The position numbers were made by a program, and so were the translations under genes. From a virus: a DNA stretch of 64,000 bases. The notes beneath the pieces were generated by a model. The model was not told the DNA's origin and searched no databases. It saw only the letters and a program-made list of their open reading frames with translations. Positions 9,361-40,994 of the stretch are shown here, piece by piece (the first letter of the stretch is position 1; the number at the start of each line of letters is the position of its first letter). The stretch is from positions 116,050 to 180,049 of the IMG/VR virus record IMGVR_UViG_3300022602_000031. One strand, written 5' to 3'.

Positions 9361-10493
9361 CACCAAAAGACGTATTAACCAATCCTTACTTTTGCCCTAT
9401 GCCGTGGACAGGGCTTATGTATAACTTCAACGGTGATGTTAAAAACTGTATACGTAGCAGTGAACCGATTGGTAACATTAAAAGTAGTCCTATAGAATCT
9501 ATCCTGACCAATATGCATAATCAGGATACACAGTTTCGTATGATTCAAGGAACCCCAGGACAAAAATGTTTTCCCTGCTATGAATTAGATCAAGGTCAAC
9601 GTGGATTTAATCATATCAGCGACCGCGTATTTTATATTAAAGAATTAAAGTCTGTGCCAATGGATACATATCGTATGGGGCATCACGATCTACATACCAT
9701 TGATGTACGGTGGACCAATTTATGTAACTTTGCCTGTACCTATTGCGGTCCAAGATTTAGCAGTCGGTGGGCAGAAGAACTTGGAGCAGAACAGTCAGTG
9801 CCTACGGAAGAACAACGTAGTAAATTTAAAGAATATATATTCCGTCACGCACCAACATTGAAACACGTATATATGGCCGGTGGCGAACCTTTATTAATGA
9901 AAGAAAATCTAGAGCTATTAAACCTATTAGATCCTGATGTTAATTTACGCATCAATACAAATCTAAGCAAAGTAGATACTCGTGTATTTGATCGTGTTTG
10001 CGAATTTCGTAATGTACATTGGACTGTTAGTGTGGACTCAATTGAATCGGAATACGAATACATTAGATATGGCGGTCGCTGGACAGACTTTTTAGATAAT
10101 CTAATGACTATCAAAAAACTTGGACACAAGGTTTCGTTTAATATGTTACATTTTATATTAAACTACAACAGCATATTTGGGTGTGTTGATTATTTTAAAG
10201 AACAAGGTTTCCATAATAACAGTTTTATTATCGGACCTTTGTTGACTCCTGAATATCTAAATGTTAGACATTTACCAGACTCAGTATTAGATACAGTCAA
10301 GGCTACGCTCGAAGACCGTATCAATGCTAAACCAGGATTCCTATTAGAAAATAGTTATGTGAATATGCTTAACTATATTAAACAGCCAATGCTAAAAAAC
10401 CTAGCAAACTCGTTTACTCAAATTGGTATTATAGATCAACGTAGAGGATTAGACAGTAGTAAAATCTTTCAGGAGTTATATGGATACCGTTAA
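9357..10493 (+). CDS. radical SAM protein (twitch/SPASM-like), 2 of 3
   Basis: 378 residues. The iron-sulfur motif is C123-x3-C127-x2-C130 (CNFACTYC), with AGGEP at 174-178, INTNLS and WTVSVDSIE further on. The N-terminus resembles a relocated SPASM domain: PYFCPMPWTGLMYNFNGDVKNC (motif positions 11-31) and CFPC at 71-74. It is related in plan to the protein at 7988-8872 but longer. The target is unknown; peptide or glycan tailoring is possible. Translational coupling on both sides (ATGA before, 14-bp overlap after). Confidence 0.8.
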   Translation: MTPKDVLTNPYFCPMPWTGLMYNFNGDVKNCIRSSEPIGNIKSSPIESILTNMHNQDTQFRMIQGTPGQKCFPCYELDQGQRGFNHISDRVFYIKELKSVPMDTYRMGHHDLHTIDVRWTNLCNFACTYCGPRFSSRWAEELGAEQSVPTEEQRSKFKEYIFRHAPTLKHVYMAGGEPLLMKENLELLNLLDPDVNLRINTNLSKVDTRVFDRVCEFRNVHWTVSVDSIESEYEYIRYGGRWTDFLDNLMTIKKLGHKVSFNMLHFILNYNSIFGCVDYFKEQGFHNNSFIIGPLLTPEYLNVRHLPDSVLDTVKATLEDRINAKPGFLLENSYVNMLNYIKQPMLKNLANSFTQIGIIDQRRGLDSSKIFQELYGYR

Positions 10494-11589
10494 CTCTATT
10501 GGGTTTGCTTTAGATCCTGCTAATGTACCTAGCTTTTTGCTTGATTGGGAGTTGACCAAGTTATGTAATTTGGATTGTAGCTATTGTACAGTTGGTATCA
10601 ACGGTGGTCACGATAACACAACCAAGCATCCACCATTGGCAGACTGTTTACAGTCAATTGATTTTATGTATGAGTATGTAGATCAATATATGCTGTATAA
10701 AAAGCCAACTCAGCGTAAAGTAGTATTAAACGTCTACGGAGGGGAAAGTTTATTTCACCCTGACATTGTAGAAATCTTGCGCGAATGCCATAGTAGATAC
10801 GAACACTATAGTGATCGTTGGGATTTGACCATTACCTGCACTACCAATGCTGTAGTAGGCGCAAGGCGTTGGGCAGAGATAGTGCCAATGGTAGACGAAT
10901 TTACTGTAAGTTACCATCCAGAGAATTTACCCAAACAACGTCAACAATATTTGGATAACTTAATGTATCTTCAGGCACAAGGTAAACGATTTAAAGCCAT
11001 TGTTATGATGCATAATCAACCTGAGCTGTTTGCCGATGCCGAATCTGTTGTAGCGTTTTGCCAAGACCACAATATGCGTTATTTGGCTAAACCTTTAGAC
11101 AACACCAGTGAACGTTGGGCCTACACACCAGAACAGTTTGCTCGTATCACTGAACAACCTGTGACATTTGTTAAAAAAGTCAGCAGTATCAATGAAGGCC
11201 GGGCCTGCTGTGGTGGTCGTAGACTTAGCCTAAATGGCGATCTACGAAGTAACGTTGGGTTTGTAGCCCGGCAAGGATTCACTGGTTGGTCGTGTAGTGT
11301 AAATTGGTTCTTTTTATTCGTACGTCAACTTGATGGTGCGGTGTTTACCAATAAAGATTGCCGTATGAGTACGACTGGAAAAGAAGAACCACTGGGAAAT
11401 ATTGCTGAAGCAAAAAAGATTATAAGTAAGCTACAGACCCAATTAGAAACCAACACAATGCCCATTATAAGTTGTAAAAAAGCAATTTGTCGTTGTGGGT
11501 TCTGTGCCCCAAAAGCTGAAAGTGAACAAGACTTTCGAGCGTTAATTAAGAGAAACGTTGTAGTTGACGTTTTTCAAAAAGAGTGTTAA
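10480..11589 (+). CDS. radical SAM protein, 3 of 3
   Basis: 369 residues. The motif is C29-x3-C33-x2-C36 (CNLDCSYC), followed by NVYGGES as the SAM-binding GGE motif, TITCTTNA and EFTVSYHPENL. The C-terminal third carries many Cys (ACCGG, SCSVNW, DCRMST, ISCKKAICRCGFC) that could bind auxiliary clusters. It differs from the two preceding genes in lacking their N-terminal Cys cluster. It ends the 7395-11589 unit; the uvsX promoter overlaps its last codons. Confidence 0.8.
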   Translation: MDTVNSIGFALDPANVPSFLLDWELTKLCNLDCSYCTVGINGGHDNTTKHPPLADCLQSIDFMYEYVDQYMLYKKPTQRKVVLNVYGGESLFHPDIVEILRECHSRYEHYSDRWDLTITCTTNAVVGARRWAEIVPMVDEFTVSYHPENLPKQRQQYLDNLMYLQAQGKRFKAIVMMHNQPELFADAESVVAFCQDHNMRYLAKPLDNTSERWAYTPEQFARITEQPVTFVKKVSSINEGRACCGGRRLSLNGDLRSNVGFVARQGFTGWSCSVNWFFLFVRQLDGAVFTNKDCRMSTTGKEEPLGNIAEAKKIISKLQTQLETNTMPIISCKKAICRCGFCAPKAESEQDFRALIKRNVVVDVFQKEC

Positions 11590-18381: not shown

Positions 18382-18466
18382 GCCCCGATGGTGGAATTGG
18401 TAGACACGCTGGTCTTAGAAGCCAGTGTCGTAAGACGTGCGAGTTCAAGTCTCGCTTGGGGCACCA
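18382..18466 (+). tRNA. tRNA-Leu(TAG)
   Basis: Acceptor GCCCCGA with a long variable arm, loop CTTAGAA, encoded CCA. It reads CTA, a codon the phage genes use often. Confidence 0.92.
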
Positions 18467-18482
18467 ATTAAAAGGATCTTCA

Positions 18483-20060
18483 ATGAAGCGCATAGTAATT
18501 GTAGGCGCTGGTGCCGCAGGGTATTTTACCGCGGCCGCAATTAAACGTAATAATCCAAATTTTGATGTTGTAGTGGTCTATGATCCTAATACTCCAATTA
18601 TTGGAGTTGGGGAATCTATAAATTGGACCGCTCCGTTTTTTATGCATACGGTACTAGGATTAACCGATGACCAGTGGGTTAAAAAAGCTCGATCTATATT
18701 TAAAATAGGTACAGTATATCAGGATTGGAATAATACTACAAATCCATTTATTGCCACAGCGTCGTTTAATGCCGACGTAGATATACTTAACACTTACACA
18801 CCGGGCAACATTGCCGAATGTGTTGCTAACTCATTCCTACAACAAACTTATTCTACTACAGATCTTTGGAGACATCTAGTTACCAAAGGACTATTGCCCA
18901 ATGATCCTGACAATTCTTATTTGTCTTATTCTAGTGAAAATTATTGGCTAGTGGATAAAAATAAATTACCTATTAGAAAAGGTCAACTTTGGCCTACACT
19001 TAAAAACACCAGATCAAGATATAGTTATCATATCAATGCTCCAATAGTTGGGCAAGTGGTCCATGACCTAGTCGGCGTCCCAGCTGGAGTACGCACAATT
19101 CCAATGAAACTTAGGAATGTTGTATTAACTAGCACGGGCAACATTGATTATCTATTATTAGATAACGAAGAACAAGTAACCGCTGATTTGTTTATTGACT
19201 GTTCAGGTTTTGCTAAAGTATTGGCCCAGCATCTTCCGTTTGAATTTGACAAGCTAGATGAGTATTTTAATGATACTGCTATAGTTGGGCCACACAGCTA
19301 TCAACAACCATCAGAGCGACGTAGTCATGCTTATATTCGTGCTATGGATTGGGGCTGGCATTTTTCTGTGTCAATGGATACACGTAGTGGCGAAGGCTAT
19401 GTGTTTAACAGTCGCCACGGAAAAAATGTTGATCGGCTAATAGAAGAATATTACACAAAAACTGGCAAGACAGATGTTAATTTTAGAAAAATATCTTGGC
19501 AACCAGGATATCAAAAAAATCTATTTGTTAATAACTGTATAACCATTGGACTAAGTCAGGGGTTTGGTGATGCGTTTGATGCTAATGCTTTTTCAAATAC
19601 CATGGAGCAGATTACTGAAATGGTAAAACTATTAAAAGCCGACCCAGAGTTAGTATTTGAATGGAAAGATCATTTTAATCATTTTGTTAAAGTTCGTAAT
19701 GATGATATAGTATTTCGCATACAGTCGGCATTTCATCTAGCACCTAGAAATAACACTGAGTATTGGCAAGAATTAAAAATTGCCGAAAGTAAATTTAAAA
19801 CTAGAGAAAAATTTCTAAACGCAATTAATGATCCTAATCGTAGATTTCTGCCAAATCTCAAAGACTCATTTTATAACCAAGGCGCTCTTATAACAATGGC
19901 ATCGCATTATGGTATACCCAACGATTTTACTATTGACGTAGATGCCAAAGTTGAAAAACTTGCAGTTGTGTATTTCAATGAACTTAGACAGTATTTTCAA
20001 AATTTAGCCGATACTGGAGTTACATCTGAAAAACTTTATACCTCTTGGTATGCAAAGTAA
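18483..20060 (+). CDS. flavin-dependent tryptophan halogenase-like protein 1
   Basis: 525 residues from the ATG after an AAGGATC ribosome site. FAD loop GAGAAG at 8-13, GVGES at 41-45, and the probable catalytic Lys K74 in SIFKIGTVYQDW. The WxWxIP signature of flavin halogenases appears as WGWHFSV, so the I-P pair is lost; DCSGFAKVL and SQGFGDAFDANAF are the usual later motifs. It would install chlorine or bromine on an indole or similar ring with reduced flavin. It is followed by a methyltransferase and an asparagine-synthetase-like ATPase. Halogenase activity is uncertain because the motif is degenerate. Confidence 0.82.
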   Translation: MKRIVIVGAGAAGYFTAAAIKRNNPNFDVVVVYDPNTPIIGVGESINWTAPFFMHTVLGLTDDQWVKKARSIFKIGTVYQDWNNTTNPFIATASFNADVDILNTYTPGNIAECVANSFLQQTYSTTDLWRHLVTKGLLPNDPDNSYLSYSSENYWLVDKNKLPIRKGQLWPTLKNTRSRYSYHINAPIVGQVVHDLVGVPAGVRTIPMKLRNVVLTSTGNIDYLLLDNEEQVTADLFIDCSGFAKVLAQHLPFEFDKLDEYFNDTAIVGPHSYQQPSERRSHAYIRAMDWGWHFSVSMDTRSGEGYVFNSRHGKNVDRLIEEYYTKTGKTDVNFRKISWQPGYQKNLFVNNCITIGLSQGFGDAFDANAFSNTMEQITEMVKLLKADPELVFEWKDHFNHFVKVRNDDIVFRIQSAFHLAPRNNTEYWQELKIAESKFKTREKFLNAINDPNRRFLPNLKDSFYNQGALITMASHYGIPNDFTIDVDAKVEKLAVVYFNELRQYFQNLADTGVTSEKLYTSWYAK

Positions 20061-22657: not shown

Positions 22658-23605
22658 ATGCAAAAAACAAACAAAATCAAGTGGCTTATTGCTCACGAAC
22701 CCGTACATCTTTTCTTACGTACAGCTGAAGCTTTTGCCGCTGATGTCAAAGAAAAAACCAATGGTTTAATCGACATTGAAATTTACACAGCTACAGAATA
22801 TGCTGAAAAATTCAACAATGGCGTAAAAGAAAACCCACTAGCACATATGGAACGTGGCAACTTAGAAATGAGCCAGTTGCATATTAGTCAACTATGGAAA
22901 TACAATGTTCCAGCATTTATGGCGTTAGAAATGCCATTCTTGTTTGAGAGTCATGATCACGCTACTCGTGTTCTTGAAGGTAATATTGGCCAAGATATGT
23001 TGCTAAGTCTTAAAGAAAAATCACCAGCACGTGGGCTAGCATTTACATACTCTGGTGGTTATCGTGTAATGGTTTCAAACGAAGAAGTTAACGAATTAGC
23101 AGACTTCCGTAATATGAGATTCTACACAGGTACAAACCCAATTGGTATGGACACTATTGAAGCTATCGGTGGTCAGCCAGATCCACACGCGATTGACCAC
23201 TTTTGGCAAACTGTACACAAAGAAGGTGACCGTCATGACGCAGTTGATACAACATTGCCACGTATTTTAGCTACTGTTGATAAAACTAATAAGCGTTATA
23301 TCACCGATACTAAACATAGCCTATTCCTAACAAGTATTATTGTTAGTGAAACTTGGTGGGCAAGTTTGGATACAGAAACAAAAGAAACATTGGCCAAAGC
23401 CGCAGTTGACGCCGCACGTTTAGAGCGCAAGTGGTCAATTGATGATTCTGAAGTAGTTGCTCGTGATGCTGTTAAACACGGTCTGAGCTACAAAGAATTG
23501 GACAAATCCGAAATGGACAAGTTCCGTGCTTTAACTGAGCCATTGTACGCCAAATATGATTCCGTGTTTATGCCTGGTTTGATTGGTGGCATTATCCGCA
23601 GTTAA
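22658..23605 (+). CDS. TRAP-type (DctP-like) solute-binding protein without signal peptide, copy 1
   Basis: 315 residues. The body follows DctP: LRTAEAFAADVKEKTNGLIDIEIYTA at the start (positions 18-43), ALEMPFLFESHDHATRVLEG near 89-108, SPARGLAFTYSGGYRVM, DFRNMRFYTGTNPIG, HSLFLTSIIVSETWW and a final helix pair. Normal DctP proteins are exported and bind carboxylates or sugar acids for a membrane permease. Here the first residues (MQKTNKIKWLIAHEP) start directly with the mature fold, with no signal peptide, and no permease gene is present. Tandem late promoters imply late expression, so a virion or lysis-phase role is possible. Confidence 0.85.
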   Translation: MQKTNKIKWLIAHEPVHLFLRTAEAFAADVKEKTNGLIDIEIYTATEYAEKFNNGVKENPLAHMERGNLEMSQLHISQLWKYNVPAFMALEMPFLFESHDHATRVLEGNIGQDMLLSLKEKSPARGLAFTYSGGYRVMVSNEEVNELADFRNMRFYTGTNPIGMDTIEAIGGQPDPHAIDHFWQTVHKEGDRHDAVDTTLPRILATVDKTNKRYITDTKHSLFLTSIIVSETWWASLDTETKETLAKAAVDAARLERKWSIDDSEVVARDAVKHGLSYKELDKSEMDKFRALTEPLYAKYDSVFMPGLIGGIIRS

Positions 23606-26931: not shown

Positions 26932-27021
26932 GGAAGTGTGGCAGAGTCCGGTTTATTGCACCTGTCTTGAAAACAGACGACTAGAAATGGTCCGTGAGTT
27001 CGAATCTCACCGCTTCCGCCA
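26932..27021 (+). tRNA. tRNA-Ser(TGA)
   Basis: GGAAGTG/CGCTTCC acceptor, loop CTTGAAA, long variable arm, encoded CCA. Confidence 0.9.
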
Positions 27022-27029
27022 TATAAATA
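27022..27029 (+). promoter_or_regulatory. T4-type late promoter (TATAAATA)
   Basis: Perfect consensus directly after tRNA-Ser and 5 bp before the ATG at 27035, again leaving almost no leader. Confidence 0.6.
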
Positions 27030-27034
27030 TCACT

Positions 27035-27619
27035 ATGAATATCAATAAAAATGAGTGGTGGGCAACACCAGTCTGGGAAATCGATTCGGGGTTTGATGAA
27101 TATTTTAACCTAGCATTGGCCGCAGAGCTAGCAGACATCAAACTTGAAAAAGGTTATGATAGATATGATATATGGGATTACAAAACTCCTAGATTATTAG
27201 AACTCAAGGAGTTTATGTTTGACGCACTAGATCAAACAGTACCCGAATACTTTGGAGAATACTATCCGTATAATCCTTGTTTTATAAACGGGTGGGCTAA
27301 CATACAACACCCAGGCGCAGATCTGCCCTTACACGATCATGGTGGTACTGTATTAGTATCAACTTACTATGTAACCTGCGAAGAAAATTCTGGGGATTTA
27401 TTAGTAGTAGATCCCAGAATGGGTGCCAATTGGGAATGGATTGCTGACAACGGATTCCAAGGAGTCAAATATCGAAGAATAACTCCCAAAGCTGGAAAAT
27501 TCATTTTATTTCCGGGCTATGTTATGCATATGGTAGAAACAAACCGTAGCAACAGTACTCGTATCAGTATTGCTACAAACATACATAATGGTAGAATTGA
27601 TAAGATACACACTAGGTAG
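27035..27619 (+). CDS. 2OG-Fe(II) oxygenase-like protein (TIGR02466 type)
   Basis: 194 residues from the ATG after the late promoter; in-frame ATGs further upstream lie inside tRNA-Ser. PLHDHGGTVLVSTYYV holds the first iron ligands, SGDLLVVDPR the next strand, GKFILFPGYVMHMVETNRS the distal His, and NSTRISIATN the Arg that binds 2-oxoglutarate. The same pattern recurs in 29864-30412. It directly precedes the late promoter of the Cys-rich operon, so it may help modify the same product. Confidence 0.72.
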   Translation: MNINKNEWWATPVWEIDSGFDEYFNLALAAELADIKLEKGYDRYDIWDYKTPRLLELKEFMFDALDQTVPEYFGEYYPYNPCFINGWANIQHPGADLPLHDHGGTVLVSTYYVTCEENSGDLLVVDPRMGANWEWIADNGFQGVKYRRITPKAGKFILFPGYVMHMVETNRSNSTRISIATNIHNGRIDKIHTR

Positions 27620-27628
27620 ATATTCTAG

Positions 27629-27636
27629 TATAAATA
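27629..27636 (+). promoter_or_regulatory. T4-type late promoter of the modification operon
   Basis: Perfect TATAAATA, 21 bp before the ATG of the Cys/Asn-rich protein. The following seven genes are tightly packed, so one late transcript can cover 27658-33713. Confidence 0.75.
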
Positions 27637-27657
27637 GTGTATTATAAGAGATAATTT

Positions 27658-28089
27658 ATGACACTACCAAGTTCAGGACAGATATCATTTGGCGACATTG
27701 ACAACGAAATTGGCGCGGCTAACCAATCGTTGAGTATGAGCTGGCTTGATACTGTTACAAAAACTTCCGTTGGTGGTAGTGTTGTTGCTTTAAATGATTT
27801 AAATGATCTATACGGATTGGCCTACTATCAAAATAACGTGTGGAACGCAAATTGTAATAATGATAATGCTTCCAGTCCTCCAAATTGTAACTGTGGCGAT
27901 CATAATTGTAGTAATTGCGTAAATTGTAATGCTATTAATTGTGCCAATGGTGATAGCCAACCATATCTACAACCAAATTGTAACTGCTATCAAACCAATG
28001 GTTTAAATTGTACATTTAATTGTACTACTAATAGCACCACTGTTAATTGTAATTGTAACTGTACTTTCTGTGCCTGCGCTTGCTGGTAA
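27658..28089 (+). CDS. Cys/Asn-rich protein with virion-type N-terminus, putative modified peptide substrate
   Basis: 143 residues. The N-terminus (MTLPSSGQISFGDIDNEIG) matches the start of many phage virion and tail proteins. From residue 65 onward the chain is low complexity with 17 Cys (66, 77, 79, 84, 87, 90, 95, 108, 110, 118, 122, 131, 133, 135, 138, 140, 142). Fourteen of these follow Asn as N-C pairs, and the chain ends in Trp143. No Lys or Arg occurs in this part. The next gene is a SPASM radical-SAM enzyme, the usual maturase for Cys-rich peptides, so this looks like a leader-plus-core substrate displayed on the virion. A metal-binding or disulfide-rich spike is the alternative. Confidence 0.85.
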   Translation: MTLPSSGQISFGDIDNEIGAANQSLSMSWLDTVTKTSVGGSVVALNDLNDLYGLAYYQNNVWNANCNNDNASSPPNCNCGDHNCSNCVNCNAINCANGDSQPYLQPNCNCYQTNGLNCTFNCTTNSTTVNCNCNCTFCACACW

Positions 28090-28104
28090 AAATCTAAGGG
28101 TTCT

Positions 28105-29553
28105 ATGAAATTTGAAATATATGCGGAACGTAACGCTAAAGATACTGCTGTCTTTTATTACGACAATCAAACAAATGTATTAACTAATCAACAAGGCGAA
28201 GAATTCAAATTTCCTGAAATGCCTACGTTTGCTGAACAGCCAACCAAGCCTTTTAGCAAAGAAGATCCTTTGCGTAAAAGCCGAGATGTTAATATGATTA
28301 AAATACAACTTGGTTTAAGTTGTAATTACAGTTGCGATTACTGTAGTCAAAAGTTTGTCGAACGTCCTCCTGAAACTAGTAAGAAAGATATTGACGCCTT
28401 TATGGCCAAGTTGGATGTGCTCAACATCACAGAAGAACGTGGATTACGTGTAGAGTTTTGGGGCGGTGAGCCGTTTGTATATTGGAAAACTCTTAAACCT
28501 CTAGCCGAAGCATTTGCTGAAAGATACAGTCATTGGAAAAAGCGTCCACAGTTTAGTGTAGTTACCAATGGCAGTTTGCTTACACGTGAAATCTGTAGCT
28601 GGTTATACTATATGGGATTTGGTGTAGGTATCAGCCACGATGGTCCTGGACAGGCAGTACGTGGTCCGGATCCTTTTGAAGATCCAGAACGTAAAAAAGT
28701 CATATTAGAATTTTACAAAATCATGGCGCCGCAGAATCGCATTAGTTTTAATGCTATGATGAATCGTAACAATACTAGCCGTCGCGCAATTAAAGAATAT
28801 TTTGTAGAGCTCACTGGAGATCCTAATGTTAAGATCGGCGAAGGTGGATTCATTGATGCGTATGATCAAGACGGTGCTAACAGTAGTTTAAATACCTTAG
28901 ACGAACATTTTGCCTATCGTCGACAAGCATTTAATGATTTGTATACCACAGGTAAGAATTTACATTTTGATACGGTTTATACTAAACTAGATGCTTTTAT
29001 TAGTAGCTTACTAGCACATCGTCCAGCCGAACTAGTTGGACAAAAATGCGGTATGGAAGAACCTGGCACAGTTGCATTAGACTTAAAAGGTAATATTGTT
29101 ACCTGTCAGAATGTCAGCGTAATGGAAACCAGCAAGAACGGCGAAGCTCATTTGGGTGGTAACTTAGACGACTACGACAACGTAGCACTCAAAGGAGTTA
29201 CACATTGGAAATCTCGTACAAATAAAGTAAATTGTGCTGACTGCCCTGTTCTTCATTTGTGTAAGGGTAGTTGTATGTACCTAGATGGTGAGTTTTGGGA
29301 TATCACCTGTAACAATGCCTACTCTGATAATATTCCTTTGTTTGCTATGGTTCTGAATGTAGTTACCAATGGATATATTCCTGTTACTATCAAAGCCGAA
29401 GGCTTACCATTGGAGCGACAAGATATCTGGGGTACAGTATACAAACACGAAGAAACTACAAAGAAAAAAATTATCCCAATTAAAGTAATATCAGAAAAGA
29501 TAGGTACACTGGATGATATCGAAGTGTACGGTAAATCAAGGGTTGAACTATGA
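28105..29553 (+). CDS. radical SAM/SPASM peptide-modifying enzyme
   Basis: 482 residues. The radical-SAM cluster motif is C73-x3-C77-x2-C80 (CNYSCDYC), with WGGEP at 119-123 and VVTNGSLL further on. The SPASM domain has C315, C334, C377-x2-C380-x5-C386-x3-C390 and C402, enough for two auxiliary clusters, as in anSME and sactipeptide or ranthipeptide maturases. The N-terminal 65 residues could hold a peptide-recognition region. It starts 15 bp after the Cys/Asn-rich gene behind AAGGG. The likely role is thioether or other C-H modification of that protein; the reaction itself is inferred. Confidence 0.88.
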   Translation: MKFEIYAERNAKDTAVFYYDNQTNVLTNQQGEEFKFPEMPTFAEQPTKPFSKEDPLRKSRDVNMIKIQLGLSCNYSCDYCSQKFVERPPETSKKDIDAFMAKLDVLNITEERGLRVEFWGGEPFVYWKTLKPLAEAFAERYSHWKKRPQFSVVTNGSLLTREICSWLYYMGFGVGISHDGPGQAVRGPDPFEDPERKKVILEFYKIMAPQNRISFNAMMNRNNTSRRAIKEYFVELTGDPNVKIGEGGFIDAYDQDGANSSLNTLDEHFAYRRQAFNDLYTTGKNLHFDTVYTKLDAFISSLLAHRPAELVGQKCGMEEPGTVALDLKGNIVTCQNVSVMETSKNGEAHLGGNLDDYDNVALKGVTHWKSRTNKVNCADCPVLHLCKGSCMYLDGEFWDITCNNAYSDNIPLFAMVLNVVTNGYIPVTIKAEGLPLERQDIWGTVYKHEETTKKKIIPIKVISEKIGTLDDIEVYGKSRVEL

Positions 29554-29861
29554 CAAACATTAATACACCAGAAATACAGGCACTAGTTGATTACTTAAAA
29601 TCTCATGTTGCTATTATAACAGACATTGATGTAGCGGCAGTAACTGATCCAGAATGGCTAGCCCACGCAAATTGTGATCGAGCTATTACTTTAAACGTCC
29701 ATATGACATTCCAAAGCCCAACACAACCTGGAAGTATTTTCTTTGGAGTCCCGGCCGCATTGTACGATGATCCTGCTATGTATCCGTTAGTTTTACAAAA
29801 CTTATATAACTTAATGAATGCCAAGCCTGGCACTATGAACTACGAAGATTTACGTAACTAA
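29550..29861 (+). CDS. small hypothetical protein in the modification operon
   Basis: 103 residues, starting in an ATGA overlap with the radical-SAM gene. Mixed alpha/beta; ITLNVHMTFQ and SIFFGVPAALYDDPAMYPLVLQ are notable. One Cys only. No family recognised. Coupling suggests a partner of the radical-SAM enzyme, such as a substrate-presenting subunit, but no RRE-type motif is evident. Confidence 0.7.
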   Translation: MTNINTPEIQALVDYLKSHVAIITDIDVAAVTDPEWLAHANCDRAITLNVHMTFQSPTQPGSIFFGVPAALYDDPAMYPLVLQNLYNLMNAKPGTMNYEDLRN

Positions 29862-29863
29862 CA

Positions 29864-30412
29864 ATGAACCTACAACCTTTATTTGCGACACCGCTATGGT
29901 CTACTACCTATGACGATGCCGATGAACTCAATCAAAAATTATTAATCGAAGGTGAATCATATGATTTTATGCAAGATTATTTTGATTTGCCCGGCGAAGG
30001 CATAGCCGAACTTAAAGAACGTATTACCAATGAACTAACTAGTATGGTCAATGAATTAGCATGGCCTATTAGTAGTTTAACTTTTAGCGGTCGGCAAAAT
30101 CCCATAGCCCCGGGCAACAATGACACACCACATCATCATCCAGATCACGAATTAGTCGGTGTGTACTATGTAAAAGTACCTTCAGTCAGTGGAGACATAC
30201 TACTACACGATCCGCGTGGTAGTGTTCCTAAGTTTTGGGAAGATCCAAACGCAGTAACAGAGTCAGAGTACCGTTCAGCAAGACCCTATCATCGCATAGA
30301 ACCTGTACCAGGAATGTTATTATTTTTTCCTGGATATCTAATACACAGCGTAGAATTTAATCGTAGCAATGATCTACGTGTCAGTATAATTCTTAGCATA
30401 AACATAGACTAA
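29864..30412 (+). CDS. 2OG-Fe(II) oxygenase-like protein (TIGR02466 type)
   Basis: 182 residues. First iron ligands in TPHHHPDHELVGVYYV, SGDILLHDPRGS as the following strand, distal His in LLFFPGYLIHSVEFNRS and Arg in NDLRVSIILS. It matches the protein at 27035-27619 motif for motif. It would hydroxylate a residue or small molecule using 2-oxoglutarate. It sits two genes after the radical-SAM enzyme in the same operon. Confidence 0.75.
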   Translation: MNLQPLFATPLWSTTYDDADELNQKLLIEGESYDFMQDYFDLPGEGIAELKERITNELTSMVNELAWPISSLTFSGRQNPIAPGNNDTPHHHPDHELVGVYYVKVPSVSGDILLHDPRGSVPKFWEDPNAVTESEYRSARPYHRIEPVPGMLLFFPGYLIHSVEFNRSNDLRVSIILSINID

Positions 30413-30413
30413 A

Positions 30414-31598
30414 ATGAAATCGATCACAGTAGTGGGTGGCGGTACCGCAGGGTGGCTTACCGCACTATACTCTCTACAGTTATTCCCCAATAGCAAAGTA
30501 ACGGTTATCGCCAGTAGCGAAATTGGAGTACTAGGTGCTGGCGAAGGAACTACTCCGGCATTTAACGAGTTTGTAGAAAATCTAGGCATCGATGTCAATG
30601 ACATTATTAAAAAAGCCGCTGGTACAGTTAAAAGCGGTATTAGATTTACCAACTGGAATGGTCCGGATACTGGTTACTATCATCCGTTTTGGGAAGGCCG
30701 TACAGCTCTACACTTTGATGCTAATTTATTAGCTAAATTTTTACAGGACATTGCCATTGGTAGAGGCATACAACTAATTGATGATGTAATCGTCGGTGTT
30801 GATACCCGCAGTCTAACTCTACAGTCTGGTCAGATACACTCATATGATTTTATATTTGACTGTTCGGGCTTCCGTCGTTTAATTATAGGGCAACACTATA
30901 ACAGTACCTGGAATTCTTATAGTCGGTCATTGCCAGCCAAACGTGCTATGCCTTTCTTTATCCCACACAATGGCAACATACCTGAATATACTGAAAGTAT
31001 AGCAATGAAGTATGGATGGGTATGGCGAATACCTGTACAAGGACGCTATGGTTGTGGTTATGTATTTGACAGCGATTACATCACCGACGCACAGGCCCTG
31101 GCAGAAATACAAGAAAGTTTTGGTCCAGTAACTAGTCCACGTACATTTAACTTTGCGGCTGGAAGTTACAGCCAAACTTGGATCAACAATGCAGTTGCCA
31201 TTGGCCTAAGTGCTGGATTTACTGAACCATTAGAAGCTACTAGTATATGGACTGCTATTACTTCGCTACAACATTTTAAAGATAAAATAGATGGCATAGA
31301 CAGACCTGAGATTAAAGAACTCTACAATCGTGATATAGAAAAACTAAATCAAGATTTCATGACATTTATACACTTTCATTATTTGTCACAGCGCAACGAC
31401 AGTGAGTTTTGGCAAGAATTTGCTACAAAGAATACTACACCAGACTTTATACAACGTATGGGGCGCCGCGCTCCTACACAACAAGAGTTAGATTATCTTT
31501 ATCAGGTTGAAAATCCTGGCGAACTATACAAAATTAAAACATACCCAGTCAACAGTTGGTTAGCAGTTGGCAACGGCATAGGATACTTTAATGGCTAA
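30414..31598 (+). CDS. flavin-dependent tryptophan halogenase-like protein 2
   Basis: 394 residues, shorter than typical 500-residue halogenases because the C-terminal domain is reduced. FAD loop GGGTAGW at 8-14, GAGEGTTP at 41-48, probable catalytic K73 in GTVKSGIRFTNW and an intact WVWRIP motif at 202-207. DCSGFRR and LSAGFTEPLEATSIW are also in place. Unlike copy 1 at 18483, all active-site signatures are preserved. In this operon the C-terminal Trp143, W62 or W29 of the Cys/Asn-rich protein could be its substrate. Confidence 0.87.
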   Translation: MKSITVVGGGTAGWLTALYSLQLFPNSKVTVIASSEIGVLGAGEGTTPAFNEFVENLGIDVNDIIKKAAGTVKSGIRFTNWNGPDTGYYHPFWEGRTALHFDANLLAKFLQDIAIGRGIQLIDDVIVGVDTRSLTLQSGQIHSYDFIFDCSGFRRLIIGQHYNSTWNSYSRSLPAKRAMPFFIPHNGNIPEYTESIAMKYGWVWRIPVQGRYGCGYVFDSDYITDAQALAEIQESFGPVTSPRTFNFAAGSYSQTWINNAVAIGLSAGFTEPLEATSIWTAITSLQHFKDKIDGIDRPEIKELYNRDIEKLNQDFMTFIHFHYLSQRNDSEFWQEFATKNTTPDFIQRMGRRAPTQQELDYLYQVENPGELYKIKTYPVNSWLAVGNGIGYFNG

Positions 31599-33066
31599 CT
31601 GTATTATATTAGCCGGAGGAACCTGGGTACCTGACTACACTAGTAAAATACAACGTGGGCTCGGTCCATATCGTATTGCTACAGCACTAGAAACAGCTGG
31701 ATATACTGTACAGGTTATAGATTTTGTTATACATTTAACCACAGAAGAAATTATACAGGCCATCAGTAAGCATCTAGGTCCCGATACACTATGGGTAGGA
31801 TTTAGTAGCACATTCTTTTGGAATACCAATCAGGTCAATCCCGAGCAGTCTTGGTTAGATAGAATGTACTGGACAGACTACAGTAATGTAAAGCCTATTA
31901 TTGATTATATAAAACAAACAAGCTCAGCTCGGTTAGTCTATGGAGGCGCCAAAACACCTTTTCTAGTAGGCACAGACAAAAATATTGATCATTATGTGGT
32001 TGGCTATGCTGATACAGCCATAGTTGAACTTACTCAATCTATAGAACGCAAGCAACCAGCAGAACTGGTAATAGACAGCACCGTATACCCAGCACCTAAA
32101 ATGGACAGTTTAACTACTTGCTGGCATACAATATTACCTGGCGAAGGGTTGCCAATTGAACTAGCACGTGGTTGTATTTTTAAATGTAAATTTTGTAGTT
32201 ATCCTTTGCTAGGAAAAAAGAAAGGAACCTATCTAATAGACACCAACTTGGTTAGAGATCAATTATTGGCCAACTACGAGCAACACGGAACAACTCGTTA
32301 TTACATTACCGATGATACTTTTAACGATGACAATGACAAAATAGAAGCATTGCATCGTGTGTTTACTGATTTACCTTTTAAAATTCAATTTAGTTGTTAT
32401 CTAAGATTAGACCTACTACATAAACATCCGCATCAGGCTGACCTGTTATCGGATATGGGACTGATAGGTACATACTTTGGTATTGAAAGTCTACTGCCAG
32501 AGAGTGCTAGAGCAATAGGCAAAGGCCTACACCCTAACAAAGTTAAGGATAGACTGTATTGGCTACAAGAACGTTGGCATCAACAGGTTAATGTTGCCGC
32601 AGGATTTATACTAGGACTACCATACGATACAACCGAGTACTTTGATAGTTTAATCAACTGGTGTATGGAAGCTGATAATCCATTACAACATATATCATTT
32701 TATGCGTTGATGTTTTATAACAAACAGATTAACGATGATGCCAGAGAAGATAGGCTACGTCCTTATTATTCTGAGTTTACCTTACACCCAGAAATATACG
32801 GATATGAATTTGACAAAGACAGCATAATGAGCTGGAGCTTACCCAGTCAACATTTGAGTTATGATAAGTGTTTGTCTATTGCGGACTACTACAACGGCCT
32901 GGTTGCGGATCGCAACAAAATTAGCGATTTCCAGCTGATATCGCACTTAAATATAGGTATACCGTTGGCAGATATGTACGAATTAACACAGCAAGAGATT
33001 AACCGCCGTTACGACATTAACCAACTAAATCAACAGCGTTTAATTGACTATAAACAACTATTATGA
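31591..33066 (+). CDS. B12-binding-type radical SAM protein
   Basis: 491 residues. The radical-SAM motif is C195-x3-C199-x2-C202 (CIFKCKFC), preceded by LPIELARG, which is typical for the Elp3/MiaB-type and B12-dependent group. The N-terminal 150 residues form a Rossmann-like domain (IILAGGTWVPD, TLWVGFSSTF, RLVYGGAKTPF) in the position of a cobalamin-binding domain; the classical DxHxxG motif is not obvious. YITDDTF, YFGIESL and AGFILGLPYDT follow. It could methylate unactivated carbons. It overlaps the halogenase by 8 bp. Confidence 0.82.
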   Translation: MANCIILAGGTWVPDYTSKIQRGLGPYRIATALETAGYTVQVIDFVIHLTTEEIIQAISKHLGPDTLWVGFSSTFFWNTNQVNPEQSWLDRMYWTDYSNVKPIIDYIKQTSSARLVYGGAKTPFLVGTDKNIDHYVVGYADTAIVELTQSIERKQPAELVIDSTVYPAPKMDSLTTCWHTILPGEGLPIELARGCIFKCKFCSYPLLGKKKGTYLIDTNLVRDQLLANYEQHGTTRYYITDDTFNDDNDKIEALHRVFTDLPFKIQFSCYLRLDLLHKHPHQADLLSDMGLIGTYFGIESLLPESARAIGKGLHPNKVKDRLYWLQERWHQQVNVAAGFILGLPYDTTEYFDSLINWCMEADNPLQHISFYALMFYNKQINDDAREDRLRPYYSEFTLHPEIYGYEFDKDSIMSWSLPSQHLSYDKCLSIADYYNGLVADRNKISDFQLISHLNIGIPLADMYELTQQEINRRYDINQLNQQRLIDYKQLL

Positions 33067-33713
33067 TTGTTGAAGAAATTTTTGGATCGCCAGTAATTAC
33101 AGTACAATGCCCGGACAGCATTTACCATAATCCCGAGCTGACCAAAAGTGTAGAGCAGATATTGAATTTGCCCACTGTAAAAAATCGTTGGAGATCAGAC
33201 ACCGGGGACAGTCACAAAGGATCGGGGCTGACTACTGTAGGGCAACCATACATTGACCTGGCGTACTTGCCGGGTGCCAAACAGCTAACTGATTGGATTT
33301 CTGAACAGCTACTATTAGTTAAGCCCATAATGGCTCCCGGTAAAACAGGTTCCCACATACACTACAAACGCAGTTGGACTAATAGACTATATCGTGGTAG
33401 TCAAGGTATGTGCCACAATCATACCAGAGCTGATACTTATATACAAGAACGTGGTGATTATAATGAAGAAAATTTTTGTCCCGACGCTGTAGCAATTTTT
33501 TACGTTGATGTACCGGAGGGTAGCAGTCAGTTGGTATTGATCAACAACGGCATTCCAGACTTACCGCATACAGCATTTACAGAAAAACATTTTATGACAC
33601 ACACCGCTGGACAATTAGTTATACACAGTCCACAGGTATGGCACGCGGTTACTGAACATCAAAGTGATAGTCCTCGTAATGTCTACGTGTTTGATGCTGA
33701 TTATGTTAACTAA
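33063..33713 (+). CDS. cupin/2OG-oxygenase-like protein
   Basis: 216 residues, ATGA overlap with the B12-type enzyme. MCHNHTRADTYI and the later VWHAVTEHQSDSPRNVYVFD give the His pair and distal His-Arg of a cupin or 2OG-oxygenase fold; DAVAIFYVDVPEGSSQLVLINNG is the strand pair between them (positions 142-164). The family is less clear than for the other oxygenases here. It closes the operon and converges with an 8-bp overlap on the minus-strand adenylating enzyme. Confidence 0.65.
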   Translation: MIVEEIFGSPVITVQCPDSIYHNPELTKSVEQILNLPTVKNRWRSDTGDSHKGSGLTTVGQPYIDLAYLPGAKQLTDWISEQLLLVKPIMAPGKTGSHIHYKRSWTNRLYRGSQGMCHNHTRADTYIQERGDYNEENFCPDAVAIFYVDVPEGSSQLVLINNGIPDLPHTAFTEKHFMTHTAGQLVIHSPQVWHAVTEHQSDSPRNVYVFDADYVN

Positions 33714-38084: not shown

Positions 38085-38091
38085 AGTTTGT

Positions 38092-38099
38092 GATAAATA
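38092..38099 (+). promoter_or_regulatory. late promoter for solute-binding protein 2
   Basis: GATAAATA, followed by the shared leader ACAAATCCCAGGAG (38112-38125) and the ATG at 38132. Confidence 0.65.
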
Positions 38100-38131
38100 A
38101 ATACAATAAACACAAATCCCAGGAGTTTTCC

Positions 38132-39097
38132 ATGAATCAAACAAAAACAATACGTTGGGTATTATACCACGAACCGATTGATCTTTTTATTCGCACAGCA
38201 GAAGCATTCAGCAAAGAAATCAATCGTTTAACTGATGGTCGCATCAACGTAGAAATTTACAGCACCAACGAATTTGCTGAAAAATTTAAAAAAGGTGTAA
38301 ACGTAGAGCCAATGGTTTGGATGCAGGCTGGCGATTGCGAAATGAGCCAGGTTCAAATTGGCGAAATTGCTAACTGGCATAGCCCAGATTTTTGGGCATT
38401 AGAACTACCATTTTTATTCCGCGATCATGATCACGCTACTCGAGCACTAGAAGGCCCAATTGGGCAAAGTATGTTAAAGAATTTAGAAAATACCAGCCCA
38501 GCACGTGGATTGGCATTTACTTACTCAGGTGGATATCGTTGTCTAGCAGTCGACCGTGAAATTAATACAGCAGAAGGTCTTAAAGGACTAACAGTTATTA
38601 CTCAAAAAAATCCAATTACAATCGAGACAGCTGAAGCATTTGGTCTAGTTCCGGTGCCGGTTAATGTTAAAGATCATCTTAACAAAGATAGAAATAAACA
38701 CACAAACTTCAACGGTAATAACGCAGTTGAAACAACATTACCGCGCTACGAAGCAGAAGCAAAAACCGAAGCTCATCGTTACATAGCCGATACACGTCAC
38801 AATATGTATTTGACAAGTATTATCATTGCTAAAGAATTTTGGAATGACTTATCTGCTGAAGATCAAGAATTTATTCAACAGGCCGCACTACACAGCAGTC
38901 GTTTAGAGCGTCAATGGTCAGTGGCTGATGCTAATAAAATTTCTGACAGCAAAGAAGAACAAGATAAGTTGGGTGTTACATACAACAATTTTAGCAAAGA
39001 AGAAACTGCTAAATTAAAACAAGCAACAGCACATTTGTATGAAAAATACTCACAATTTTTTACTCCAGATCTAGTAGATGGAATTATTAAATCCTAA
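38132..39097 (+). CDS. TRAP-type (DctP-like) solute-binding protein without signal peptide, copy 2
   Basis: 321 residues from the ATG behind CCCAGGAG; the in-frame ATG at 38090 is upstream of the promoter motif and rejected. It aligns along its whole length with copies 1 and 3: FIRTAEAFSKEINRLTDGRINVEIY, LELPFLFRDHDHATRALEG, LKGLTVITQKNPITIETAEAFG and MYLTSIIIAKEFWNDLSAEDQ are DctP marks (stretches shown are separate motifs). No signal peptide, lipobox or permease. Its end overlaps the next gene by 20 bp. Confidence 0.85.
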   Translation: MNQTKTIRWVLYHEPIDLFIRTAEAFSKEINRLTDGRINVEIYSTNEFAEKFKKGVNVEPMVWMQAGDCEMSQVQIGEIANWHSPDFWALELPFLFRDHDHATRALEGPIGQSMLKNLENTSPARGLAFTYSGGYRCLAVDREINTAEGLKGLTVITQKNPITIETAEAFGLVPVPVNVKDHLNKDRNKHTNFNGNNAVETTLPRYEAEAKTEAHRYIADTRHNMYLTSIIIAKEFWNDLSAEDQEFIQQAALHSSRLERQWSVADANKISDSKEEQDKLGVTYNNFSKEETAKLKQATAHLYEKYSQFFTPDLVDGIIKS

Positions 39098-40037: not shown

Positions 40038-40994
40038 ATGAGTCAAACAAGAAAAATCCGTTGGTTAATCGCACATGAGCCCGTAGATCTGTTCCTACGC
40101 ACAGCCGAAGCATTTCAACAAAAAATCGCCGAATTAACTAACAACGCTTTTGAAGTAGAAATCTTCACAGCCAGCGAATACAAGACAAAATTTAATAGTT
40201 ACGATAAAAAAGCCGGCCCAATGGTTGAATTGGACGAAGGCAACATCGAAATGAGCCAAATGCATATTACTGAACTAGCAGTATGGCATAACCCAGATTT
40301 TTACGCATTAGAAATGCCGTTTATTTTCCGTGATCATGATCACGCTCAACGTGTACTAGAAGGTCAAATTGGCCGTACAATGTTGGATAATTTAGAACAC
40401 GAAAGTCCAGCTAAAGGTCTAGCATTTACTTACTCGGGTGGCTTCCGTTGTGTTGCCAGCGAAGATGAAGTTACCAGCATTGACCAGTTTAAAGGCGCCA
40501 AGTTTGCTACAGCGGTTAATCCAGTTACTATTGATACCATTGAAGCATTAGGTGCAATTCCTGATGTATTCAGTATCAAAGACTTTGCCAAAAAATTAAC
40601 TGAAGAAGGTAATGATGCCCAGGCATTAGAAACTACTATTCCTCGTTACCTAGCACAATTTAAAACATCAAACAAGAAATTCTTGTTGAATACCAAACAC
40701 AGTTTATTCTTAACTACAATTATTGTTGGTAAGAAGTTCTGGAACGAACTAGATGAAACAACACAGGCCAAGTTCCGTGAAGCCTGTTTGTATGCTAGTC
40801 GTTTAGAACGTCAATGGTCAGTTGAAGAAGCAGATGAATTTGCTGATAAATTAGATCACAGCGATATTGGTGTTACATACGCAGAATTAAGCGATGCTGA
40901 AACTACTAAGTTTAAAGAACTTGTTCAACCACTATATGACAAATACCGTGATTTCTTTTATCCCGGTTTAGTTGATGGAATCATTCAAAGCTAA
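40038..40994 (+). CDS. TRAP-type (DctP-like) solute-binding protein without signal peptide, copy 3
   Basis: 318 residues. Opening residues MSQTRKIRWLIAHEPVDLFL parallel copies 1 and 2. DctP marks: ALEMPFIFRDHDHAQRVLEG, AKGLAFTYSGGFRC, FKGAKFATAVNPVTIDTIEA and HSLFLTTIIVGKKFWNEL. The ligand-binding face around TTIPRYLAQF differs among the three, so ligands may differ. No signal peptide. The ending FYPGLVDGIIQS is shared with the other copies and overlaps the next gene. Confidence 0.85.
   Translation: MSQTRKIRWLIAHEPVDLFLRTAEAFQQKIAELTNNAFEVEIFTASEYKTKFNSYDKKAGPMVELDEGNIEMSQMHITELAVWHNPDFYALEMPFIFRDHDHAQRVLEGQIGRTMLDNLEHESPAKGLAFTYSGGFRCVASEDEVTSIDQFKGAKFATAVNPVTIDTIEALGAIPDVFSIKDFAKKLTEEGNDAQALETTIPRYLAQFKTSNKKFLLNTKHSLFLTTIIVGKKFWNELDETTQAKFREACLYASRLERQWSVEEADEFADKLDHSDIGVTYAELSDAETTKFKELVQPLYDKYRDFFYPGLVDGIIQS

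Follow-up and report, generated by a model that had tools for sequence, protein, structure and literature searches.

Near-obligate pairing of a radical-SAM/SPASM enzyme with an Asn-Cys repeat of phage tail fibers suggests a chemical remodeling of virus particle tips by virus-encoded enzymes

Why does a phage encode a radical S-adenosylmethionine (radical-SAM) enzyme with a SPASM domain directly behind a short protein with a Cys-rich tail, and could a part of the phage particle be its substrate? These questions are raised by an operon in a 64,000-nucleotide stretch of viral DNA, referred to here as the window, which comprises bases 116050-180049 of the 180,049-base IMG/VR virus record IMGVR_UViG_3300022602_000031. 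The window contains 23 tRNA genes as well as T4-type core genes (large terminase, single-stranded DNA-binding protein, UvsX-like recombinase and helicase), and on the basis of these core genes the phage is T4-like. A preliminary description of the operon, made from the letters of the DNA, had interpreted it as a modification system of the RiPP type (ribosomally synthesized and post-translationally modified peptide) acting on a virion protein. Our analysis makes it probable that the enzyme, a member of family phrog_1802, modifies an Asn-Cys (NC) repeat at the C-terminal tip of tail fibers, and that the window carries an elaborate form of a widespread phage system.

The pairing of the enzyme with a Cys-repeat protein was found in both search directions. 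Relatives were collected from IMG/VR and GTDB, with 42 loci from viral contigs, 80 relatives that were kept from 568 retrieved in a profile search, and 79 loci from bacterial genomes (Limnohabitans, Polynucleobacter, Paraburkholderia, Rhodobacterales, Magnetospirillum and others); removal of near-duplicates resulted in 143 clusters, 95 of which had at least 3.5 kb on both sides (intact flanks). Nearly all of the 42 close relatives had a Cys-rich protein encoded close upstream or downstream, and a same-strand open reading frame (ORF) with a Cys repeat was present within 6 kb in 91 of the 95 intact, non-redundant loci. One locus that was initially scored as lacking such an ORF (L129) has a typical precursor, and no Cys-rich precursor was found in L008, L233 and L255. 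Since the opposite-strand control, in which a Cys-repeat ORF occurred in 30 of the 95 loci, was apparently inflated by the antisense of the repeat and is thus uninformative, the forward figure rests on the converse scan and on domain homology. In this converse direction, a DNA scan for CACACW followed by a stop codon, which made no use of the enzyme, detected 18 genuine precursors, all 18 with the enzyme beside them. Likewise, a scan for NCNCNCxC in ORFs of at least 60 amino acids with at least 3.5 kb downstream, again made without reference to the enzyme, revealed a same-strand enzyme gene near 37 of the 38 genuine tail ORFs among the matches listed, and the only ORF without the enzyme among these matches is unlike a real tail. 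The enzyme was found in none of 54 unrelated background contigs (515 kb). The test of co-occurrence in other phage genomes that the preliminary description had called for thus gave a positive result in both directions across very divergent phages and prophages, and the contrary case that it had named, radical-SAM homologs without a Cys-rich neighbor, was sought and proved rare (4 of the 95 intact loci). Coincidental adjacency was rejected by the forward and converse scans.

Two adjacent genes, each with an Asn-Cys repeat at its end, were observed upstream of one radical-SAM gene in L322 (6543-7123) and in L337 (5156-6016). In L254 and L255 (Parasutterella, Duodenibacillus) radical-SAM genes occur in tandem, and those of L254 adjoin short proteins in which YC..YC and NCTTVNC motifs recur, possibly a distant branch of the system.

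The Cys-rich protein of the window comprises 143 residues, and its last 79 residues contain 17 Cys and 14 NC pairs. In 20,000 residue shuffles of the tail the number of NC pairs averaged 4.5 and never reached 14, and the Cys background in window ORFs of at least 150 amino acids was 1.3% of residues; the count given in the preliminary description was thus confirmed and lies beyond the shuffled expectation. Chance Cys-richness was rejected by these shuffles and by the existence of homologs. An alignment of the window's own subfamily showed the repeat as a conserved domain of approximately 75 residues behind a short N-terminal part, which looks like a structural domain and which, when used as a consensus query, weakly resembles a Vibrio phage tail fiber (E=6e-3). 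The tail is predicted to be disordered, with a mean predicted local distance difference test score (pLDDT) of 44 in the structure prediction of the substrate, as would be expected of a segment that becomes ordered on modification.

For the NC-tail family at large a tail-fiber character is well supported by sequence comparison and by tail-module position, and for the window protein it is supported indirectly. Several NC-tail proteins (in L182, L319, L314 and L301) matched tail-fiber families in PHROG. Achromobacter phages JWF and 2-1, both in culture, carry a short version of the repeat in a fiber-like protein whose gene belongs to the tail module and lies two genes ahead of that of the enzyme. 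Most prophages have the repeat only as the last 10-20 residues of longer proteins, which terminate, for example, in NCNCNCRC or NCNCNCDCCC directly before the stop codon. A Hint-type domain directly follows the repeat in JWF and 2-1 as well as in L185, L244 and L281. Moreover, in L010-L012 and L121 an S74 intramolecular chaperone domain (PF13884) begins exactly after CFW (CFW followed by SDDTLK), and the L011 protein additionally has tail-fiber PHROG matches. The S74 Ser and Lys of L011 and L121 are five residues apart, a spacing as in the S74-type catalytic dyad of phage endosialidases and MYRF, where this Ser becomes the first residue of the part that is released (PMC3742443). Since this dyad directly follows CFW, S74 cleavage would leave a C-terminal Trp, as in the window protein. 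The three architectures, with a bare stop, an S74 domain or a Hint domain behind the repeat, point to a mature C-terminal end, and the repeat appears to be the tip of the mature fiber. In Synechococcus phage SynMITS9220M01 (L259, 4669-6519) a CSKIIC-like C-terminal domain was observed after a Gly-rich stretch, approximately 33 prolines and 8 arginines; this polyPro-polyArg stretch occupies the place of the Asn-Cys repeat of related phages.

The gene next to the substrate encodes a SPASM radical-SAM enzyme, as originally described, with CxxxCxxC at residue 73 and the full seven-Cys SPASM pattern, both invariant across the relatives; it scored above the cut-off of the SPASM model TIGR04085 (34 versus 27 bits) and was assigned to PHROG family 1802 with E=4e-59. 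Its AlphaFold model is confident (pLDDT 90), and the best structural matches, CteB, the anaerobic sulfatase-maturating enzyme (anSME), ChlB, TigE, SuiB and SkfB, with CteB as the single best, are all protein- or peptide-modifying radical-SAM enzymes, in agreement with the sequence profiles. Judged from this modeled fold, crosslinked Cys are a likely product. None of the curated NCBIfam equivalog models was reached, the best being PapB with 76.7 bits versus a cut-off of 340, and membership in a known curated RiPP family was rejected since all equivalog scores were far below their cut-offs. Of the properties that mark sactipeptide and ranthipeptide systems, the SPASM auxiliary clusters and a co-conserved Cys-rich precursor next to the enzyme were found, while a match to a curated maturase model and, in the window operon, a leader peptide with export and protease genes were not. 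The RiPP-type interpretation is partly supported: the co-occurrence agrees with a dedicated maturase, but no curated model places the enzyme among the sactipeptide or ranthipeptide systems.

Several known systems resemble parts of this arrangement. The maturases of ranthipeptides and SCIFF peptides (CteB, PapB) and the sactisynthases (SkfB) share with the window enzyme the radical-SAM and SPASM domains with two auxiliary clusters and a short Cys-rich partner next door. The window system differs, apart from the equivalog scores given above, in its putative tail-fiber substrate without an apparent leader, in the lack of a recognized RiPP recognition element (RRE) and of export genes, and in being phage-borne. 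In quinohemoprotein amine dehydrogenase the SPASM enzyme QhpD crosslinks Cys of a subunit, and the halogenase-like flavoprotein QhpG subsequently modifies a Trp of the same subunit (PMC7876137). Both window enzymes gave weak profile matches to these families; however, the QhpD/QhpG product is the cofactor of a bacterial enzyme, whereas the window protein would be a phage fiber tail with many more Cys, and QhpG is an oxygenase and not a halogenase. The flavin enzyme SrpI is known to halogenate a ribosomal peptide at its C-terminal Trp (PMC10286304), but substrate class and genomic context of the RiPP Trp halogenases SrpI and ChlH differ from those in the window, where the activity is predicted. 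The viral halogenases of cyanophage Syn10 (VirX1) and HTVC008M belong to the same enzyme family and to T4-like aquatic phages, but no radical-SAM partner or Cys tail is annotated beside them, and the operon clade is separate. The enzyme anSMEcpe shares the protein-modifying radical-SAM/SPASM fold but acts on a single CxPxR site, and no such target is present in the 143-amino-acid sequence. Known S74 and Hint tail fibers share the C-terminal domain, but we found none for which an Asn-Cys repeat or a partner enzyme of the radical-SAM type has been described.

The gene set of the window, whose members mostly overlap or lie a few bases apart, as expected from the coupling noted in the preliminary description, comprises the following features:

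27022-27029, plus strand: TATAAATA, late-promoter-like motif preceding the first 2-oxoglutarate (2OG)-Fe oxygenase
27035-27619, plus strand: 2OG-Fe(II) oxygenase A (PF13759, phrog_81), with a conserved position ahead of related precursors; inferred start
27629-27636, plus strand: TATAAATA, late-promoter-like motif preceding the Cys-rich protein
27658-28089, plus strand: 143-amino-acid Cys-rich substrate protein, putative tail-fiber tip; homologs neighbor the radical-SAM gene in almost every related locus
27658-27846, plus strand: N-terminal part of the substrate (MTLPSSGQISFGDIDNEIG...), with weak similarity to a tail-fiber protein
27850-28086, plus strand: Asn-Cys repeat region, 79 amino acids, 17 Cys, 14 NC pairs, predicted disordered
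28069-28086, plus strand: C-terminal CACACW motif with the terminal Trp, proposed halogenase target
28105-29553, plus strand: radical-SAM/SPASM maturase (phrog_1802)
29550-29861, plus strand: 103-amino-acid protein with no assigned function, not conserved; overlaps the maturase stop codon
29864-30412, plus strand: 2OG-Fe(II) oxygenase B (PF13759, phrog_81)
30414-31598, plus strand: member of the flavin-dependent halogenase family (Trp_halogenase) that retains the Lys and Glu motifs of catalysis
31591-33066, plus strand: B12-binding radical-SAM enzyme, putative C-methyltransferase or other
33063-33713, plus strand: third 2OG-Fe(II) oxygenase, previously termed cupin-like

The genes previously placed at 27629-33713 are indeed found there, but the set really begins one gene earlier, since oxygenase A is conserved upstream of related precursors. 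As the listed start of its ORF (26930) overlaps a tRNA-Ser (26932-27021), translation probably starts at 27035. Likewise, the late promoter postulated at 27629 corresponds to a TATAAATA motif, but the same motif occurs at 27022 and shows no enrichment across the window (6 occurrences versus 8.5 expected); as strong evidence for late promoters it was rejected, and a single late promoter at 27629 is only plausible. The oxygenase behind the 103-residue gene and the B12-type radical-SAM enzyme were confirmed, the latter with a Radical_SAM match above cut-off and a B12-binding match that was significant but below cut-off. The gene at 33063, in contrast, had been taken for a cupin-like oxygenase but also belongs to the 2OG-Fe family (phrog_81, with a PF13759 score slightly below the cut-off). 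A 2OG oxygenase was found nearby in 70 of the 95 loci versus 1 of the 54 background contigs. No homolog of the 103-amino-acid protein was detectable, in agreement with its earlier description as an unknown protein, and related loci of the Trp-ended type carry a different, fast-evolving gene of approximately 215 amino acids in its place; it was rejected as a conserved partner. The gene set is conserved in divergent contigs.

The halogenase, whose motifs had been described as intact, matched PF04820 with 305 bits versus a cut-off of 21 and contains the GxGxxG and WxWxIP motifs; the catalytic Lys and Glu motifs likewise align. Among 108 non-redundant loci, the presence of a halogenase coincided without exception with that of a Trp in the Cys tail, both being present in 23 loci and both absent in 85. 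The halogenases of these operons group in a single clade, which neighbors that of pelagiphage HTVC008M. We propose from this co-distribution that the terminal Trp may be the halogenase target. A second, very different gene of the Trp-halogenase family (phrog_2928) was observed at window position 18456-20060, without a Cys-rich neighbor.

In the explanation that we favor, the radical-SAM/SPASM enzyme would install several Cys crosslinks in the NC repeats, most likely thioethers as formed by CteB/PapB/QhpD-type enzymes, and through this crosslinking the disordered tail would become a rigid fiber tip for host contact, held in shape by covalent bonds. The 2OG-Fe oxygenases would hydroxylate residues of the same tail, the halogenase would halogenate or oxygenate the terminal Trp in the Trp-ended variant represented by the window, and the B12 radical-SAM enzyme would add a further C-modification, perhaps methylation; the window protein would accordingly be located in the virion. 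A broader proposition appears evenly balanced to us, namely that this is a general phage system in which radical-SAM enzymes covalently re-engineer the C-terminal tips of trimeric fibers by several Cys crosslinks per chain, possibly also between chains, and which is complemented in some T4-like phages by halogenation of the terminal Trp; the host-contact surface would then display non-ribosomal chemistry made by enzymes.

The same tail could be the substrate of another chemistry, in which its Cys would be oxidized (to formylglycine as by anSME, or through other Cys or Asn C-H chemistry, epimerization or desaturation) instead of being linked by thioethers. Structures of anSME rank high in both the fold and the profile comparisons, the JWF enzyme is named 'anaerobic sulfatase-maturating enzyme' in GenBank, and TigE, a non-thioether enzyme, is also structurally near; however, anSME recognizes a single CxPxR site and needs no dense Cys repeats, and with CteB as the best fold match and PapB as the best family model we consider such a chemistry unlikely. 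Also unlikely, if slightly less so, is the view that the halogenase, the B12 enzyme and the oxygenases serve other substrates, for example in host or DNA metabolism, and are merely neighbors of the pair, given that halogenases and 2OG oxygenases are common cyanophage auxiliary genes and that the co-distribution of Trp and halogenase reflects few independent events. The perfect match of Trp end and halogenase (23 of 23 loci with, and 0 of 85 without, a Trp end), the separate clade of the operon halogenases and the conservation of the gene set in divergent contigs argue against this view.

Iron is bound at the tip of T4 gp37 via HxH, and the CxCxC tail of a trimeric fiber might form the Cys analog of such a metal-binding needle tip or one held by disulfides, with the radical-SAM enzyme modifying another target or only a neighboring residue. 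An alternating xCxCxC sequence would place the Cys on one strand face in the trimer, and the polyPro-polyArg stretch before the CSKIIC-like domain of the cyanophage fiber indicates that the segment may be structural, but the near-obligate radical-SAM pairing is hard to explain if Cys alone suffice, which renders this alternative improbable. It is more doubtful still that the product is a free secreted RiPP (a bacteriocin, metallophore or superinfection factor) made during infection and not a virion part: the absence of protease, transporter or export genes from the window operon, the lack of an apparent cleavable leader and the fusion of the Cys tail to tail fibers, S74 and Hint domains in relatives outweigh the resemblance of the short precursor, the stacked tailoring enzymes and the C-terminal Trp halogenation (with SrpI as precedent) to RiPP clusters, as well as the position of the distant relative L230 (a Sulfuritalea metagenome-assembled genome) beside ABC-transporter/HlyD-like genes rather than phage genes.

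Some observations weigh against modification of the fiber tip as proposed above. The window precursor itself had no PHROG tail match, and no RRE or cleavable leader was recognizable in the precursor or operon. In a fourth architecture the repeat is fused to a CSKIIC domain, so that the primary product contains it internally. Sequence does not reveal the chemistry, since the near structural neighbors include enzymes that crosslink (CteB), oxidize Cys (anSME) or make cyclopropylglycine (TigE). Moreover, many cyanophages carry halogenases without this system, and the match of Trp and halogenase needs about two changes on the radical-SAM tree, which leaves few independent pairs and makes it weak as independent evidence.

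Elsewhere in the window, a third, weak radical-SAM protein is encoded in the replication region (10480-11589). The minus-strand segment 33706-36471, convergent with the operon, contains an AMP-binding adenylation-type ligase and a 437-amino-acid protein with a marginal QueC match, with a small ORF between them. Three members of family phrog_31178 are located at 22658-23605, 38090-39097 and 40038-40994.

The open literature yielded no account of phage structural proteins being matured by radical-SAM enzymes, and published work on JWF relatives does not mention the radical-SAM enzyme. There is a substantial chance that the system, although of a known kind, radical-SAM protein maturation, represents a new class of virion modification. 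Small natural products and several bacterial enzymes are known to undergo such maturation, whereas we found no case for virus particles. The phrog_1802 enzymes would form a large and new radical-SAM family that modifies proteins and whose targets are easy to recognize, and the Trp-ended tails are candidates for the natural substrates of one group of viral halogenases. The near-obligate gene pair spans dozens of divergent phages and prophages, and the cultured JWF and 2-1 among them make the system testable. If the proposed explanation is true, viruses remodel the tips of their own particles chemically, and tail fibers carry modifications that are invisible to sequence and structure prediction and are relevant to the recognition of hosts and the stability of phages.

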